A stretch of 64,000 nt of DNA, taken from Haloarchaeobius iranensis. GTDB lineage: Archaea; Halobacteriota; Halobacteria; Halobacteriales; Natrialbaceae. Where the stretch lies: NCBI RefSeq assembly GCF_900103505.1, contig NZ_FNIA01000006.1, positions 1-64,000 of the forward strand. Direction: 5' to 3'. Shown here in pieces: positions 31,231 to 36,965 of this stretch (positions are counted from its first letter, which is position 1; each line of letters starts with the position of its first letter). Position numbers and translations under genes: made by a program. A model generated the notes under the pieces. The model saw only the letters and a list, made by a program, of their open reading frames with translations. It was not told the origin of the DNA and searched no databases.

Positions 31231-32769
31231 ATGTCTCCCGAAGACACCCGACGCCGGTCGTTCCTGCTGACCGGGGCGACAGCCCTGACCGGTGGCCTCG
31301 CCGGCTGTACGGGACTACTCGAAGAGTCCGACCCCGAAGAGGGGACGGAGAATGGTACCGCAACCTCGACGCCGACGGCCGCCCCGACGGCGACCCAGGA
31401 GCCAGTCGAGCTACCCGTCGAGGGCGATGCGACGCGCATCGAATACGGTGCGAGCGTCTCGGCCGAGCTCACGGCGAGCGCACCCTCCGACTCCGAGTTC
31501 GAGGGCCACTACCAGCCCTACACGTTCGTCGGGTCGGCCGGCGACGTGGTGCAGATTTCGATGACCTCGCCGAGCGGCGACCCCTACCTCTTCCTGCTCG
31601 ACGCTGAGGGGAACGTGCTCGCGGAGAACGACGACTCTGAAGGCCTCAACTCGGCAATCAGCGGGGTCGAGCTGCCGGACGACGGTGGCTACGTCATCCT
31701 CGCCGGGAGCTTCAGCGACACCCTCGACTTCGAGTACCAGCTCTCGCTCACCACCGTGCCGTCCGACCTGCGCTCTATCGACGTCGGCGAGACCCTGACC
31801 GGGACCATCGACACCAGCGACCCGCAGAGCAGCCAGTTCAACGGCTACTACGAACCCGTCACGCTCGAGGTCGGGAGCGAGACGTCGATGAACATCTCGC
31901 TGAGCTCGGCGAACGGCGACACCCACCTCTACCTCCTCGACCCCGACGACAACGTCATCGCGGAGAACGACGACTTCAGCGGTCTCAACTCGTTCCTCCT
32001 CGGCGTCACCCTCCCCGAGGCAGGGGAGTACACCATCGTCGCGGCGAGCTTCGAGCCGGAGGAGACGTTCACCTACGAGCTCTCCGTCTCCGATGCGACC
32101 GCGACGCAGTCCATCTCCGTCGGCGAGACCATCGAGGGCGAGCTCAGCAGCGACGACAGCCAGCTCCCGGCGCTCAACGGCTACCACGACTTCATCGACC
32201 TCGACGTCGGCAGCGACGTCACGGTCGACATCGAGATGAGCTCGGACGCCGGTGACACCCTCATCGCGGTCCTCGACGCGGACGGCAACGTCGTCACGGC
32301 CAGCAACGGCCCCAACACCGGTATCCCGCGGCTCGCCGTCCCCGCGAACAGCGAGTACACCATCATCGCCACCAGTGCCGACCCGAGCGCGACGTTCGGC
32401 TACGAGCTGTCGGTCACGGAGAGCGGCGAGCTGCCGGATCTGCGGTCTATCTCCGTCGGCGAGACCAGGACCGGTGGTATCGACACGGGCGACCCCCGCG
32501 AGGACCGGTTCAACGGCTACTACGAACCCGTCACGCTCGAGGGCGAGGCCGGCCAGTACGTCGACATCGAGATGACTTCCGAGCCGGGCGACACCTACCT
32601 CTACCTCCTCGACCCGAGCGGACAGGTCGTCGCGGAGAACGACGACTACGACGGCCTCAACTCGCGCATCGAGTACGAGCTGGCCGCCTCCGGCGAGTAC
32701 ACCATCATCGCCGCCAGCTTCTCGTCCACTGCCACCTTCGAGTACGAGCTCTCGGTCAGGCAGGCCTAG
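31231..32769 (+). CDS. Exported lipoprotein with four PPC-like repeats
   Basis: A 512-aa surface protein. The signal TRRRSFLLTG...LAGC is twin-arginine with lipidation Cys 26; a Thr/Pro linker follows. The mature part consists of four beta-sandwich repeats of about 108 residues (roughly 70-178, 183-287, 291-395, 400-512), each with the pre-peptidase C-terminal (PPC) pattern: FNGYY/HYQPYTF, GD.YLYLLDP, AENDD.GLNS, GEYTIIAASF. No protease domain is attached. Probably a cell-envelope binding protein; ligand unknown. It shares no operon with hisH. Confidence 0.85.
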   Translation: MSPEDTRRRSFLLTGATALTGGLAGCTGLLEESDPEEGTENGTATSTPTAAPTATQEPVELPVEGDATRIEYGASVSAELTASAPSDSEFEGHYQPYTFVGSAGDVVQISMTSPSGDPYLFLLDAEGNVLAENDDSEGLNSAISGVELPDDGGYVILAGSFSDTLDFEYQLSLTTVPSDLRSIDVGETLTGTIDTSDPQSSQFNGYYEPVTLEVGSETSMNISLSSANGDTHLYLLDPDDNVIAENDDFSGLNSFLLGVTLPEAGEYTIVAASFEPEETFTYELSVSDATATQSISVGETIEGELSSDDSQLPALNGYHDFIDLDVGSDVTVDIEMSSDAGDTLIAVLDADGNVVTASNGPNTGIPRLAVPANSEYTIIATSADPSATFGYELSVTESGELPDLRSISVGETRTGGIDTGDPREDRFNGYYEPVTLEGEAGQYVDIEMTSEPGDTYLYLLDPSGQVVAENDDYDGLNSRIEYELAASGEYTIIAASFSSTATFEYELSVRQA

Positions 32770-33140
32770 AGGAACTCCCGGACCTCCGAGTACCACATGT
32801 CGTGGTGGTCCATCGCGCCGACCCGCTCGGCGATGGGCACCGCCAGGGCGTGCCAGCACAGCTCCGTGGGGTCGTCCGGGTCCAGGTTGTACTCGGCGTC
32901 CTTGCACGTGCAGCCGCCGTCCTCGACGATGTACTCGTCCTCGTAGCCGACGACGACGGTGAAGTCGCGGTACCGTTTCACACGGCCTTCGGAGACGGCC
33001 TCGATGGCGTGCTTCCCGCGGTCGCCGTGGACATCCATGATGGCCTCGACCGCGTCGGGCGTCAGCTCGCCGGCGTCTTCGAGAGCCGCCTGCCACTCCT
33101 CGACGGCGCGCTCGCGGTCCTCATCTGTCACGCGAGCCAC
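32766..33140 (-). CDS. SWIM zinc-finger protein
   Basis: 124 aa with a C-terminal SWIM motif: C-x-C (GCTCKD) followed 16 residues later by CWHALAV, giving the CxCx(n)CxH zinc ligands. The N-terminal 60 residues are helical and charged. SWIM fingers bind DNA or proteins in recombination, ubiquitin and transposon contexts; the haloarchaeal small versions are uncharacterised. It overlaps the end of the PPC gene by 4 nt on the opposite strand. Confidence 0.85.
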   Translation of the reverse strand: MARVTDEDRERAVEEWQAALEDAGELTPDAVEAIMDVHGDRGKHAIEAVSEGRVKRYRDFTVVVGYEDEYIVEDGGCTCKDAEYNLDPDDPTELCWHALAVPIAERVGAMDHHDMWYSEVREFL

Positions 33141-33247
33141 CCGGCGGCGATGCCCTCAATCACTGTCCCGTCGTTCGGTCGGAGGTGTGAAAACAGTTCG
33201 GTCCCGGCACCCGAAGGCACTTATCGGAAATCACCGTTGGTCAGGGT

Positions 33248-33910
33248 ATGCCTTCCAGACGGCAGTTCCTCGGAGCGACCGCCGTCGTCGCCACGGCCGG
33301 CTGTCTCGGCAGCTTCGATACGGGCGACTCGGAGTCCGACGGGACACCGACCACGACGGCCGCACTCGCCACCGGCGAACGGACCCGAGGTGAGGCCGAC
33401 CGCCTCACGTTCGAGAAGACGGTCACCGCCGACCGGTACGAGTACGTCGAGTCGAACGACACCGTCCGATATCCCGCGACGACCAGCGGCTGGGACGACC
33501 CCGAGTACGGGTACGAACCGTTCGACGAGTGGGTACGGGTCCAGTGCGCGGAAGCCAGGGTCGAGGCGGTGTTCGACCGACTCGACCGTGGATTAGAATC
33601 CACGGCGCACGTCTCGGTGGGGTTCGGTCGCGACCCGGGTTCCGAGGAGTTCTCCGTCTTTGCTGAACACCAGACCTACCGAGACGACGCAGGCACCGTC
33701 GTCGCGGAGCCGGACGTTCCCGTCGGGGCTCTCGTCGTCGAGACCCCGCACAGGGTCGACGCGCACGTCGAGTTCGCGGAGCGGTCGGGGAGCCGCTCGT
33801 TTCCGGTGTTCGTTCGGCGGGCCGTCCTCGACGAGACGTGGATCGAAACCGACGAAAGCTCCGCTTACTGTTCCCGAAGATGTTTAATGAACATCACCGT
33901 TGGTAAGAAT
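33248..33910 (+). CDS. Tat lipoprotein, protease pro-region-like, copy 1
   Basis: Begins MPSRRQFLGATAVVATAGC: twin-arginine lipoprotein signal with lipid Cys 19. The mature part has the segments YEYVESNDTVRYP, YEPFDEWVRVQCAEARVEA and ETPHRVDAHVEF...FPVFVRR. It has no stop codon before the next copy: the frame runs through at least to 34486, so the end given is only the base before copy 2's own ATG. The same architecture is seen in copy 2 and, more distantly, in residues 50-175 of the protease at 34510. Function unknown; pro-region homology suggests binding to that protease. Confidence 0.7.
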
Positions 33911-34486
33911 ATGCCCTCCCGACGAACGTTTCTCGCCAGCGTCGGCACCGTCGTTACCCTCACGACGGGGTGTCTCACGACACTCGATTCCGGAGGGACT
34001 CCAACCACGTTCGAACCCGGACACCGGGTGAGAGCGGAAGGTGAACCAGTGACGACCGAAACGGAGATCGAGGACCCCGAACTGGAGTACATCGAGTCGA
34101 ACGACACGGTCCGCTATCCGGAGAAGAAGTCCGGAGAAACGATTGTCGAGTACGGGTTCATTTCCTTCGATGAGTGGGCCCACAATGAGAGCTGGCACTT
34201 GGCACGAGACGCGGTAGTGAATCAATTTCGACCGCCATTGTCGGACCGAGAGTACATTTATGTTTCATCTGAAGAGGAGCCGAACGAACAGGAAGATGTC
34301 GTGGTCCATCATGTGACCGTGCAAGAGGAGTCCGATGAGACGGTACACGAGCCTGAGGTGGGCTTTTTCCGTCTCCTGAGTGAGACTCCGCGTACGGTTA
34401 CAGCAACGGTACAGTTTGCTGGACGAGGGGTGACGAACGAACACCGAGTATTTGTGAAAAGATATAGCCAAAACGACAATGAATAG
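33911..34486 (+). CDS. Tat lipoprotein, protease pro-region-like, copy 2
   Basis: 191 aa from its own ATG at 33911, with its own twin-arginine lipoprotein signal (MPSRRTFLASVGTVV...TTGC). Mature segments mirror copy 1: LEYIESNDTVRYP, ISFDEWAHNESW and ETPRTVTATVQF...HRVFVKR. The 12 bases ATCACCGTTGGT lie 6 nt before both ATGs, so each copy probably has its own promoter. The second half is clearly lower in GC than typical genes of this window. Reading through from copy 1 is possible but would bury this export signal inside a protein. Confidence 0.75.
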   Translation: MPSRRTFLASVGTVVTLTTGCLTTLDSGGTPTTFEPGHRVRAEGEPVTTETEIEDPELEYIESNDTVRYPEKKSGETIVEYGFISFDEWAHNESWHLARDAVVNQFRPPLSDREYIYVSSEEEPNEQEDVVVHHVTVQEESDETVHEPEVGFFRLLSETPRTVTATVQFAGRGVTNEHRVFVKRYSQNDNE

Positions 34487-34509
34487 ATTCTAGAATTGAA
34501 ACTTGGGAG

Positions 34510-35742
34510 CTAGTGGTAGAATCCGTTATACGTGTTCTCAACTGCTTCAGCAGTATTCCCGATATCTACTCCGTTTTGGTAATAAAATTGATTAATGATG
34601 CCGAGTATATACGCCCCGTAACCGTCTTCGGATTCTGCAAATATCAGTCCACCAGAATCACCGCATTCCACATCCGCTGTAAACTTGATTTGTTGTGTTC
34701 CACCCCCATTATTTTCGTCGTATTCTGTAATTTGAGACGACACTCTCTCCAGGACATTCCCCTGTGCATAGACTGTCTCCCCGGTTGCTTCGTATGTATT
34801 CTGGATGCCCTGATCTGTTATCGACCCATAGATATCGTAATCTGTCGTCGTGGTCGATGGATGCCGGATTCTACGTTGTGTGTTCTGGCTATACGTTCTT
34901 AGTAGCGCGTAGTCACGGTCAGTCGTGTCAATTTTATCGAGCACATAGCCATCAGGCGAGTCTAAATCTGGATTTCCCCAACTGGGGTTTGGCTCGCCGG
35001 CTTCGGGTGCTTGGACACAATGTCCTGCTGCGATCAAACAGTATTCACCATATTTGTGGTGGTAGAAGGTGCCGTTGGCAGTTCCAGGATCTCCATCGGG
35101 CCATCCCCACACACAGCAGCCTGCTGGAATATCGGACCAGTCGTGGATGTACGAGGGGGGAGTATCGTCATTGTCACCACATTCGGTCTGTGCTGCTCGC
35201 TCTACCTGAGTTCGACTAAACCTCACAGGAATTCCTTTTCGGGTAGCGGCCCATTCGTCTCGACCCACGGTTATTTCAAGCGTATTTGGGAGGGCCTCCG
35301 CTACAGATTGAGCCGATGCATGCGGAGTCACTTCCGACCCACCCGAATCAGAAGCTACCGGATACCGAACGACAATTTCGTACCCAATTGGACTCTGGTC
35401 TGATTCGACCTTATGGGCGTTGAGTTCTGGTGACCGGGGAAATTCTTGTCTTAGGAGTCGATAAATTCTGCTCTGGGCTTCGGATGCGGTTTCGACTCGT
35501 ATCCACTCGTCGCGAGAAATAGAATTGTATATTGGTTCTCTCCTGATTGGATTCCCGTCGTCGTCTTCTACCACTCTCAGGCGCTCTACGTATGAGACTT
35601 CTTCAGACGGATCCCCCATTGCAGAGACCAGTCCCTCTTGGGTGCCAAACCGGAGGCATGATGTCGAGATTCCGATTGCTGAAGCTACTTTCATAAATCG
35701 ACGTCGCCCCATTCGTTCAAGTTTCGAACCTCTCAACTTCAT
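34510..35742 (-). CDS. Secreted chymotrypsin-fold (S1-like) serine protease
   Basis: 410 aa. An RR-containing export signal (MGRRRFMKVASAIGIS, start may be Met 11) is followed by a pro-like region (about 45-185) and a catalytic domain. The triad is readable: His 241 in LIAAGHC, Asp 277 in DRDYALL, Ser 363 in ECGDSGG. Several cysteines (191, 209, 210, 235, 242, 360) could form disulfides. The pro-like region contains SISRDEWIRVETASEAQSR and LPNTLEITVGRDEW, resembling the two neighbouring lipoproteins. Low GC compared with the rest of the window, suggesting transfer. Confidence 0.88.
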   Translation of the reverse strand: MKLRGSKLERMGRRRFMKVASAIGISTSCLRFGTQEGLVSAMGDPSEEVSYVERLRVVEDDDGNPIRREPIYNSISRDEWIRVETASEAQSRIYRLLRQEFPRSPELNAHKVESDQSPIGYEIVVRYPVASDSGGSEVTPHASAQSVAEALPNTLEITVGRDEWAATRKGIPVRFSRTQVERAAQTECGDNDDTPPSYIHDWSDIPAGCCVWGWPDGDPGTANGTFYHHKYGEYCLIAAGHCVQAPEAGEPNPSWGNPDLDSPDGYVLDKIDTTDRDYALLRTYSQNTQRRIRHPSTTTTDYDIYGSITDQGIQNTYEATGETVYAQGNVLERVSSQITEYDENNGGGTQQIKFTADVECGDSGGLIFAESEDGYGAYILGIINQFYYQNGVDIGNTAEAVENTYNGFYH

Positions 35743-35855
35743 GAATTTCTAATAGCCAGTACCAATAGTGCCTACAAACAACTTGTGTTCGTGGAGAGCG
35801 GAGGTAAAACGACCACATCGCATCCCTTTTCGCCCACCGCCGCGCACGAACCCGC

Positions 35856-36965
35856 ATGGACGTCACGGAGGGCAACGTCACGGTCTCGGTGCCCGCACAG
35901 GACGGCGAGGGCACCCACGAGTCGGTCTTCTTCAACCCGGTCCAGGAGTTCAACCGCGATCTGACCGTCGCGGTCCTCCGGGCGTACCGCGAGCACGAGG
36001 AGCGCGCGGACACCTATCTCGACGCGATGACGGCCTCGGGAATCAGGGGGGCCCGGGCCGCCGCCGAGGGCTGGAACGTGACCTGCTGTGACGTGGACGA
36101 GGAGGCCGTGGAACTCGCCCGGGAGAACCTCGCACGCAACGACCTCGACGCCGAGGTGGTTCACCGGAACGTCAACGCGCTCATGCACGAGGACTACTTC
36201 GACGTCGTGGACCTGGACCCGTTCGGCACGCCGATGCCCTTCGCCGACGCCGCCTTCGCCAACACCCGGGACCTGCTCTGCGTCACCGCGACGGACACCG
36301 CCCCGCTCTGTGGCGCGCACTTCGACTCCGGCGTGCGCTCCTACGCCGCCGTCCCGCGCAACACCGACTACCACGCCGAGATGGGCGTCCGTATCCTGCT
36401 CGGCGCGCTGGCGCGGGCCGGCGCACGCTGGGACACCGGCATCACGCCGCTGCTGACACACGCGACGAACCACTACGTCCGCACCTACCTCGACCTCTCG
36501 GGGCGGGCGACCGACGCCAACGAGAGCGTGGACGAACTGGGCTTCCTCCACCACTGCGAGGACTGCCTCCGGCGCGAGCCCGAGCAGGGACTGATACCCC
36601 ACCCACCCGAGACCTGCCCCCGCTGCGACGGCAACCGGGTGCTCACCGCCGGGCCGGTCTGGCTCGGCCCCTACCGCGACCCCGAGTTCGTCGCCGACGT
36701 GCGCGACCGGGTCACCGACGACATGGGCACCGCCGACCGCGCGCAGGACCTCTGTGATACCCTCGAAGCCGAGCTCGACGAGCCGAGCCACTACGACCAG
36801 CACCGCCTCTGCAAGCTCTGGGGCCGCGGTGCCAGCGGGATGGACGAGTTCCTCGACGCGCTCCGGGAGTCGGGGTTCGCCGCGTCGCGAGCGCACTACG
36901 GCGGCACGACGTTCAAGAGCGACGCGTCGATTCCGGAGATGGAAGCGGCGACCGAAGATCGCTGA
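35856..36965 (+). CDS. trm1: tRNA (guanine(26)-N(2))-dimethyltransferase
   Basis: Methylates G26 of tRNAs using S-adenosylmethionine. The 369-aa protein shows the Trm1 opening ([26 protein letters not shown]), the SAM site ([14 protein letters not shown]), the catalytic DLDPFGTP, and a C-terminal zinc cluster (CEDCLRR...CPRC). Complete and of normal length. ATG at 35856 fits the conserved N-terminus. Confidence 0.94.

Follow-up and report, generated by a model that had tools for sequence, protein, structure and literature searches.

A gene for a secreted serine protease of Haloarchaeobius iranensis lies convergent with two lipoprotein genes, whose products an earlier sequence-only reading had judged by eye to be stand-alone versions of the pro-region of the protease. 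Are these lipoproteins (LPs) homologous to that region, and what could such proteins do beside the enzyme? We addressed these questions in a 64,000-nucleotide stretch of DNA, here called the window, and in families of related proteins collected from genomes of the same taxonomic family (125) and class (391).

A variable cassette of two lipoproteins and a protease

The locus has the following features, in window coordinates:

33202..35812, no strand: variable cassette LP1-LP2-protease, from junction alignment with genomes G002, G003 and G004 and from gene positions
33220..33247, plus strand: LP1 promoter-like element CTTATCGGAAATCACCGTTGGTCAGGGT, with a TATA-like box about 27 nt before the ATG, leaderless type
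33248-34486, plus strand: LP1-LP2 open frame, a single frame without a stop between LP1 and LP2
33248..33880, plus strand: LP1, Tat lipoprotein, kin of the protease N-domain (RR motif, lipobox Cys19; A1/A4 profile member)
33302..33304, plus strand: LP1 lipobox cysteine, from sequence
33883..33910, plus strand: LP2 promoter-like element TTTAATGAACATCACCGTTGGTAAGAAT, within the LP1 read-through frame
33911..34486, plus strand: LP2, Tat lipoprotein, kin of the protease N-domain (profile; model pLDDT 92.3)
33971..33973, plus strand: LP2 lipobox cysteine, Cys21, from sequence
34106..34474, plus strand: LP2 folded domain, LP2 residues 66-188 (model residues 44-166)
34510..35742, minus strand: S1-type (chymotrypsin-fold) secreted serine protease, composed of Tat signal, N-domain and catalytic domain
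35602..35742, minus strand: Tat signal region of the protease (MGRRRFMKVA), from sequence, conserved across the protease family
35200..35601, minus strand: protease N-domain ("pro-region"), residues 48-181, homologous to the LPs
34513..35130, minus strand: protease catalytic domain, residues 205-410, with H241, D277 and S363 in GDSGG

When checked against the sequence, the coordinates and motifs given in the sequence-only reading were correct. Both LPs begin with a twin-arginine motif and a lipobox (RRQFLG..ATAGC in LP1, RRTFLA..LTTGC in LP2), and on these two features of their sequence both are Tat lipoproteins; TAT signal models match LP1 at E values of 2e-4 and 0.004. The lipobox cysteine is absent in some members of the LP family. 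The type of element found upstream of LP1 also precedes LP2, the LP gene of the sister species (G002) and that of G004. Its pattern in the genus is approximately CCGAAG, then TTAT or TTTAAT, then ATCACCGTTGGT, with the ATG six bases further. Every LP gene in the genus is preceded by such an element, which resembles a shared leaderless promoter and may include a binding site for a regulator. A scan with a sigma-70 promoter model, which is not designed for archaea, gave no match.

The description of LP1 and LP2 as tandem lipoproteins was borne out in part: the two domains do stand in tandem, and LP2 has its own promoter element and signal peptide, but no stop codon ends LP1. We considered that LP1-LP2 is one two-domain fusion protein, against which the separate promoter-like element and signal peptide of LP2 argue. 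Read-through of the stopless frame may be genuine, giving a fusion that contains a lipoprotein signal internally, or the missing stop may be a slip of sequencing or assembly. With 39% identity, LP1 and LP2 are no recent twins. Elsewhere, a single 390-codon frame of G406 (L148:5608-6777) apparently encodes a two-domain relative, with two LP domains but no signal peptide between them, and LP genes form tandem pairs in G334 and G228 (L183, L184), where no protease of the window's S1 family is nearby.

Within the genus, the site of the cassette is occupied in some genomes and empty in others. It holds one LP and a protease in G002, a gap of about 130 bp in G003, a truncated LP1 with an unrelated, secreted-looking 547-codon frame in G004 (L201:2498-4138), and other frames in G001 and G005; the gap between the flanking genes appears to be a preferred site of gene exchange. 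On the left the cassette is flanked by a SWIM-type zinc-finger gene (32766-33140; sub-threshold Pfam match) and on the right by a gene (35856-36965) that we take, by reading of its sequence, to encode a tRNA dimethyltransferase. The GC content is 49.8% in the protease gene, 55% in LP2 and 67.3% in LP1, compared to 67.4% in the window. Compared with their G002 counterparts, the hisH-like, SWIM and dimethyltransferase proteins encoded beside the window's cassette show 91-93% identity, and the promoter and signal peptide of the protease are well conserved (83% identity in the signal region), whereas identity is 43% in the N-domain, 49% in the catalytic domain and 38-39% in the LPs. A divergent cassette amid conserved flanks would fit either the acquisition of different alleles from outside or rapid divergence of the kind seen in competition loci. 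Just upstream, at 31231-32769, lies a gene whose lipoprotein product contains repeats of the pre-peptidase C-terminal (PPC) domain (Pfam E 1e-23); G002 has several tandem relatives of it.

Homology of the lipoproteins to the protease N-domain

Profile comparison confirmed that the LPs are stand-alone homologues of the N-terminal region of the protease. The LP family (63 sequences) aligned by hhalign with the protease family (28 sequences) at a probability of 98.4 and an E value of 9e-15 over protease residues 66-184, and the match was confined to the stretch between the export signal and the catalytic domain; the resemblance first noticed by eye is therefore real. Across hhalign runs on the family profiles, the profile-profile comparison proposed by the sequence-only reading, probabilities ranged from 98.0 to 98.7 and E values from 2e-13 to 3e-16. 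With the N-domain alone the hhalign score was 100, compared to 10.9 for the catalytic domain and 12.6 for a reversed control, and single-column shuffles (n=100) scored at most 16.9. Shuffling in blocks gave 34.7 with 8-column and 57.6 with 20-column blocks, values that are elevated because long pieces of the true match survive.

The alternative that the likeness arises by chance, or from a generic alpha/beta topology, could appeal to the weak BLAST matches between the window's own LPs and protease, which are marginal (E 0.041 and 0.018). We give it a negligible probability, and it is refuted by profile scores far above those of the shuffled, reversed and catalytic-domain controls, by reciprocal HMM matches and by the LP of G002, which matches the window protease at E 4e-8 (28% identity over 111 aa). 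In the reciprocal searches, the protease profile retrieved stand-alone proteins of about 220 aa with E values as low as 1.1e-19, the matches being limited to query positions 35-190, and the LP profile retrieved proteases at 1.6e-12. A run TNHEEVVxGxxPPEREPxYxxxPxExW is common to proteases and to some LPs (G338, G406, G235, G324). Of the motifs on which the by-eye alignment had been anchored, FDEW of the LPs does pair with RDEW of the protease (residues 77-80), but a second GRDEW is no anchor; the second aligned anchor pairs LPNT of the protease with ETPxx of the LPs.

Searches of Pfam, NCBIfam, PADLOC and PHROGs assigned neither the LPs nor the N-domain to a family, the only matches being to signal peptides or noise below threshold, and a search of solved structures by sequence gave no convincing match for either. 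DUF7445 (PF24232) was rejected as a family for LP2, the match scoring 13.3 bits (E 0.1) against a gathering score of 27 bits.

Structure prediction, which the sequence-only reading had suggested as a check, gave confident models of LP2 and the N-domain with an identical order of strands and helices, and the comparison of the two folds is based on this order together with the profile alignment. In the LP2 model (pLDDT 92.3) the order is strand-strand-long helix-strand-strand-short helix-strand-strand, with strands at 44-52 and 55-63, a helix at 64-82, strands at 94-100 and 106-116, a helix at 130-136 and strands at 140-147 and 150-166. The corresponding elements of the protease N-domain are strands at 48-59 and 65-76, a helix at 77-100, strands at 108-113 and 121-131, a helix at 144-150 and strands at 154-159 and 166-181, followed by a linker (182-204) of low model confidence. 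A near-invariant tryptophan (in FDEW of the LPs; W80 of the protease) opens the long helix in both models. A fold search with the LP model gave no Foldseek match under E 0.3, a best VIA Z of 3.7 and no clear relative in the PDB, an outcome that does not in itself establish a novel fold. The VIA matches to nucleotidyltransferase, OsmC and the alpha-lytic pro-region were tied at Z of about 3, and we do not count these as relatives.

The catalytic domain carries the S1 triad, H241 and S363 being invariant and D277 conserved in at least 90% of the 28 sequences. Its model has the double beta-barrel fold (VIA Z 22.4 to 2sfa over 181 residues, rmsd 2.7), which is that of the streptogrisins and alpha-lytic protease (VIA Z 21-22), and by sequence profile the protease matches streptogrisin B at E 1.3e-8. 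The two-domain model further aligned with rice NAL1 (8pmi_B; Z 20.7, 286 residues, rmsd 4.2) over protease residues 76-410, compared to about 180 residues aligned structurally by the catalytic domain alone. Since this alignment runs over both domains, the models suggest a long-standing association of the N-domain with this catalytic domain. NAL1 was not found by sequence among the matches listed, nor did the LP model alone retrieve it. The N-domain of rice NAL1 is permanent, and the term "pro-region" is therefore used with caution for the N-domain of the protease, a putative removable propeptide. In G031, G098 and G390 (L034, L035, L102) genes of the protease family are split, a short separate frame encoding the Tat signal together with the whole N-domain or a portion of it, which could represent decay or possibly a step towards a stand-alone N-domain.

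Distribution and origin of the lipoproteins

The LP family is present in 92 of the 391 genomes of the class (E < 1e-15) and full-length proteases of this S1 family in 27, as counted by eye from the search tables, and nine genomes have both. LPs occur in 9/27 genomes with the protease and in 83/364 of the others (Fisher p 0.24). The co-occurrence by which the sequence-only reading proposed to judge the module is thus not significant at the level of genomes, but adjacency of LP and protease does recur. In about 80 genomic regions inspected around LPs, the majority of LPs had no protease of this family within about 6 kb, and six loci, from about four lineages, had an LP beside an S1-family protease or its remnant. 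By a rough estimate, 0.04-0.33 adjacent pairs are expected by chance, and the probability of four lineages is 1e-7 to 4e-4; the LP/protease neighbourhood is non-random, far above chance. These pairs usually comprise one LP and one protease; the trio with two LPs was seen in the window only.

The adjacent loci differ in layout. G002 has an LP and a protease in the same convergent arrangement as the window. G363 has a protease followed by an LP in the same direction, the open frames lying 9 bp apart, and in G210 a protease without the N-domain is immediately followed by the LP. In G012 and G364 the LP is intact, but all that is present of the protease next to it is the final 50-60 residues of the catalytic domain; the frames alongside are, as we read them, presumably recombinase- or transposase-like. 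In three of the six loci, then, the protease is truncated and the LP intact. Halorussus ruber has one LP (named-genome scan, alignment A3) and no protease of the window's S1 family in its 12.6 kb. No LP was found on plasmids at E 1e-5, and proteases of this S1 family were found on haloarchaeal plasmids of Halocatena salina, Halorussus halophilus and Natrinema thermotolerans.

In a tree of 93 domains, built by a quick method and with many weak and long branches, the protease N-domains all fall in one group (support 100), joined only by the LP of G363. This LP is the sister of the N-domain of its own neighbouring protease (support 95; pairwise E 1e-6), from which it appears to be newly derived. 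The window LPs lie deep within the LP group, together with the LPs of G002 and G012. The arrangement of LP beside protease therefore appears to have arisen at least twice: local duplication would account for G363 only, and the position of the window LPs outside the N-domain group suggests that old LPs came to lie beside the protease more than once. Of the indirect evidence that LP and protease are functionally linked, this history is the strongest.

Function of the lipoproteins and known systems

What might the LPs do? We propose, with a probability of about 0.5, that they are anchored in the membrane and act as inhibitors of, or immunity proteins against, a secreted S1 protease from whose N-domain they derive. 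The N-domain of the protease would pack on the catalytic domain and restrain the enzyme until export or maturation; the tethered LPs would bind the same face of the catalytic domain in trans at the cell surface, and would prevent active protease from attacking the envelope of the cell that makes it. Haloarchaea are vulnerable to their own proteases: the secreted haloarchaeal protease SptA harms its producer when it is active inside the cell (PMC6085418). LPs with no protease nearby may protect against the proteases of neighbouring cells or have been kept after loss of a partner. The separate promoters of the window LP and protease count against the inhibitor reading. Moreover, since most LPs stand without a protease and co-occurrence is not significant, many may serve other roles; the stand-alone LPs could be either orphan immunity genes or members of a family with a wider role, of which this pairing is one use.

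The propeptides of secreted proteases are often folding helpers and lipase foldases of the Lif type are membrane-anchored, so a membrane anchor would also suit a steric chaperone or activator acting in trans, which would aid folding or release of the exported protease. The adjacency of LP and protease in several lineages agrees with such a role. We nevertheless consider it decidedly unlikely. The full-length proteases retain an intact N-domain of their own, which makes a foldase in trans unnecessary; the Tat pathway exports folded proteins, and the protease is therefore expected to fold in the cytoplasm before it meets a surface lipoprotein; and LPs persist where the protease is broken. These three points together favour an inhibitor or immunity protein over a foldase. 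Possible, if doubtful, is that the N-domain is a permanent regulatory or sensing domain as in NAL1, that the LPs are ligand-binding surface proteins, and that their proximity reflects local duplication or a shared mobile cassette rather than an interaction with the protease. The NAL1 alignment across both domains and the wide occurrence of LPs without a protease speak for this, but duplication fits G363 alone, the window LPs belonging to the old LP group, and the LP model by itself has no clear relative in the PDB.

If the LPs are indeed inhibitors, a broader and rather speculative extension, which we think unlikely, is that they form a class-wide tethered immunity family directed against fast-diverging S1 proteases in haloarchaeal competition, in which cassettes would pair a protease with its cognate LP, orphan LP arrays would guard against the enzymes of neighbours and the immunity gene would have been repeatedly re-invented from the N-domain. 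An inhibitor role would give a large haloarchaeal lipoprotein family without a Pfam model a testable function, and offer a handle on how archaea that lack both periplasm and outer membrane cope with the proteases they export; the separate origin in G363 would be a natural test case for the evolution of a propeptide into an inhibitor.

Among known systems, alpha-lytic protease and the streptogrisins share the catalytic fold and are likewise secreted with an N-terminal region, but the LP domain matches the alpha-lytic pro-region (3pro) at Z 3.1 over 64 residues only, tied with unrelated folds. Rice NAL1 has a comparable two-domain arrangement, an N-domain and a trypsin-like domain, with 286 residues aligned to the protease model, and differs in being a plant intracellular enzyme whose sequence was not matched to the window protease; we know of no stand-alone NAL1 N-domain. 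A few cysteine and subtilisin-type proteases have known stand-alone inhibitors that resemble propeptides; to our knowledge, based on open papers, no such inhibitor has been described as a lipoprotein for a secreted S1 protease of an archaeon. The halolysins (SptA and others; PMC6085418) are, like the window protease, serine proteases that haloarchaea secrete by the Tat pathway, and they have an N-terminal propeptide where the window protease has its N-domain; their fold is that of subtilisin rather than S1, and the passages of PMC6085418 consulted mention no tethered propeptide paralogue. The C10 proteases of Bacteroides fragilis resemble the window trio in having small adjacent putative inhibitors, some of them lipoproteins and, in bfi1A-bfp1-bfi1B, two for a single protease (PMC2873492), but these Bfi proteins resemble staphostatins rather than a propeptide and their targets are cysteine proteases (PMC2873492).

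Closest in concept are two stand-alone propeptide-like proteins. SUB1-ProM of Plasmodium is a potent inhibitor encoded at a syntenic locus beside three subtilase genes and is, like the window LPs, a stand-alone protein encoded beside protease genes, propeptide-like in its case; it differs in belonging to a eukaryote, in its subtilisin-type protease and propeptide, and in that PMC6993865 does not describe it as lipid-anchored (PMC6993865). The LPs are not placed in the family of SUB1-ProM or in that of Spi of Streptococcus pyogenes, because protease clan, fold and domain of life differ and the two features by which such an inhibitor is defined, a removable propeptide and measured inhibition, are here only proposed. 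Spi is a propeptide analogue that is encoded beside the secreted protease SpeB and inhibits it (Kagawa 2005, via PMC2873492); SpeB is a cysteine protease of a bacterium and its inhibition is experimental, whereas the window holds an S1 serine protease of an archaeon, lipoproteins and a proposed inhibition. With both systems the LPs share homology with the N-terminal part of a secreted protease and, in the window and five other loci though not for most LPs, a gene beside that of the protease; like the SpeB-Spi locus, the window pairs the gene of a secreted protease with a neighbouring gene for a stand-alone counterpart of its N-terminal part.
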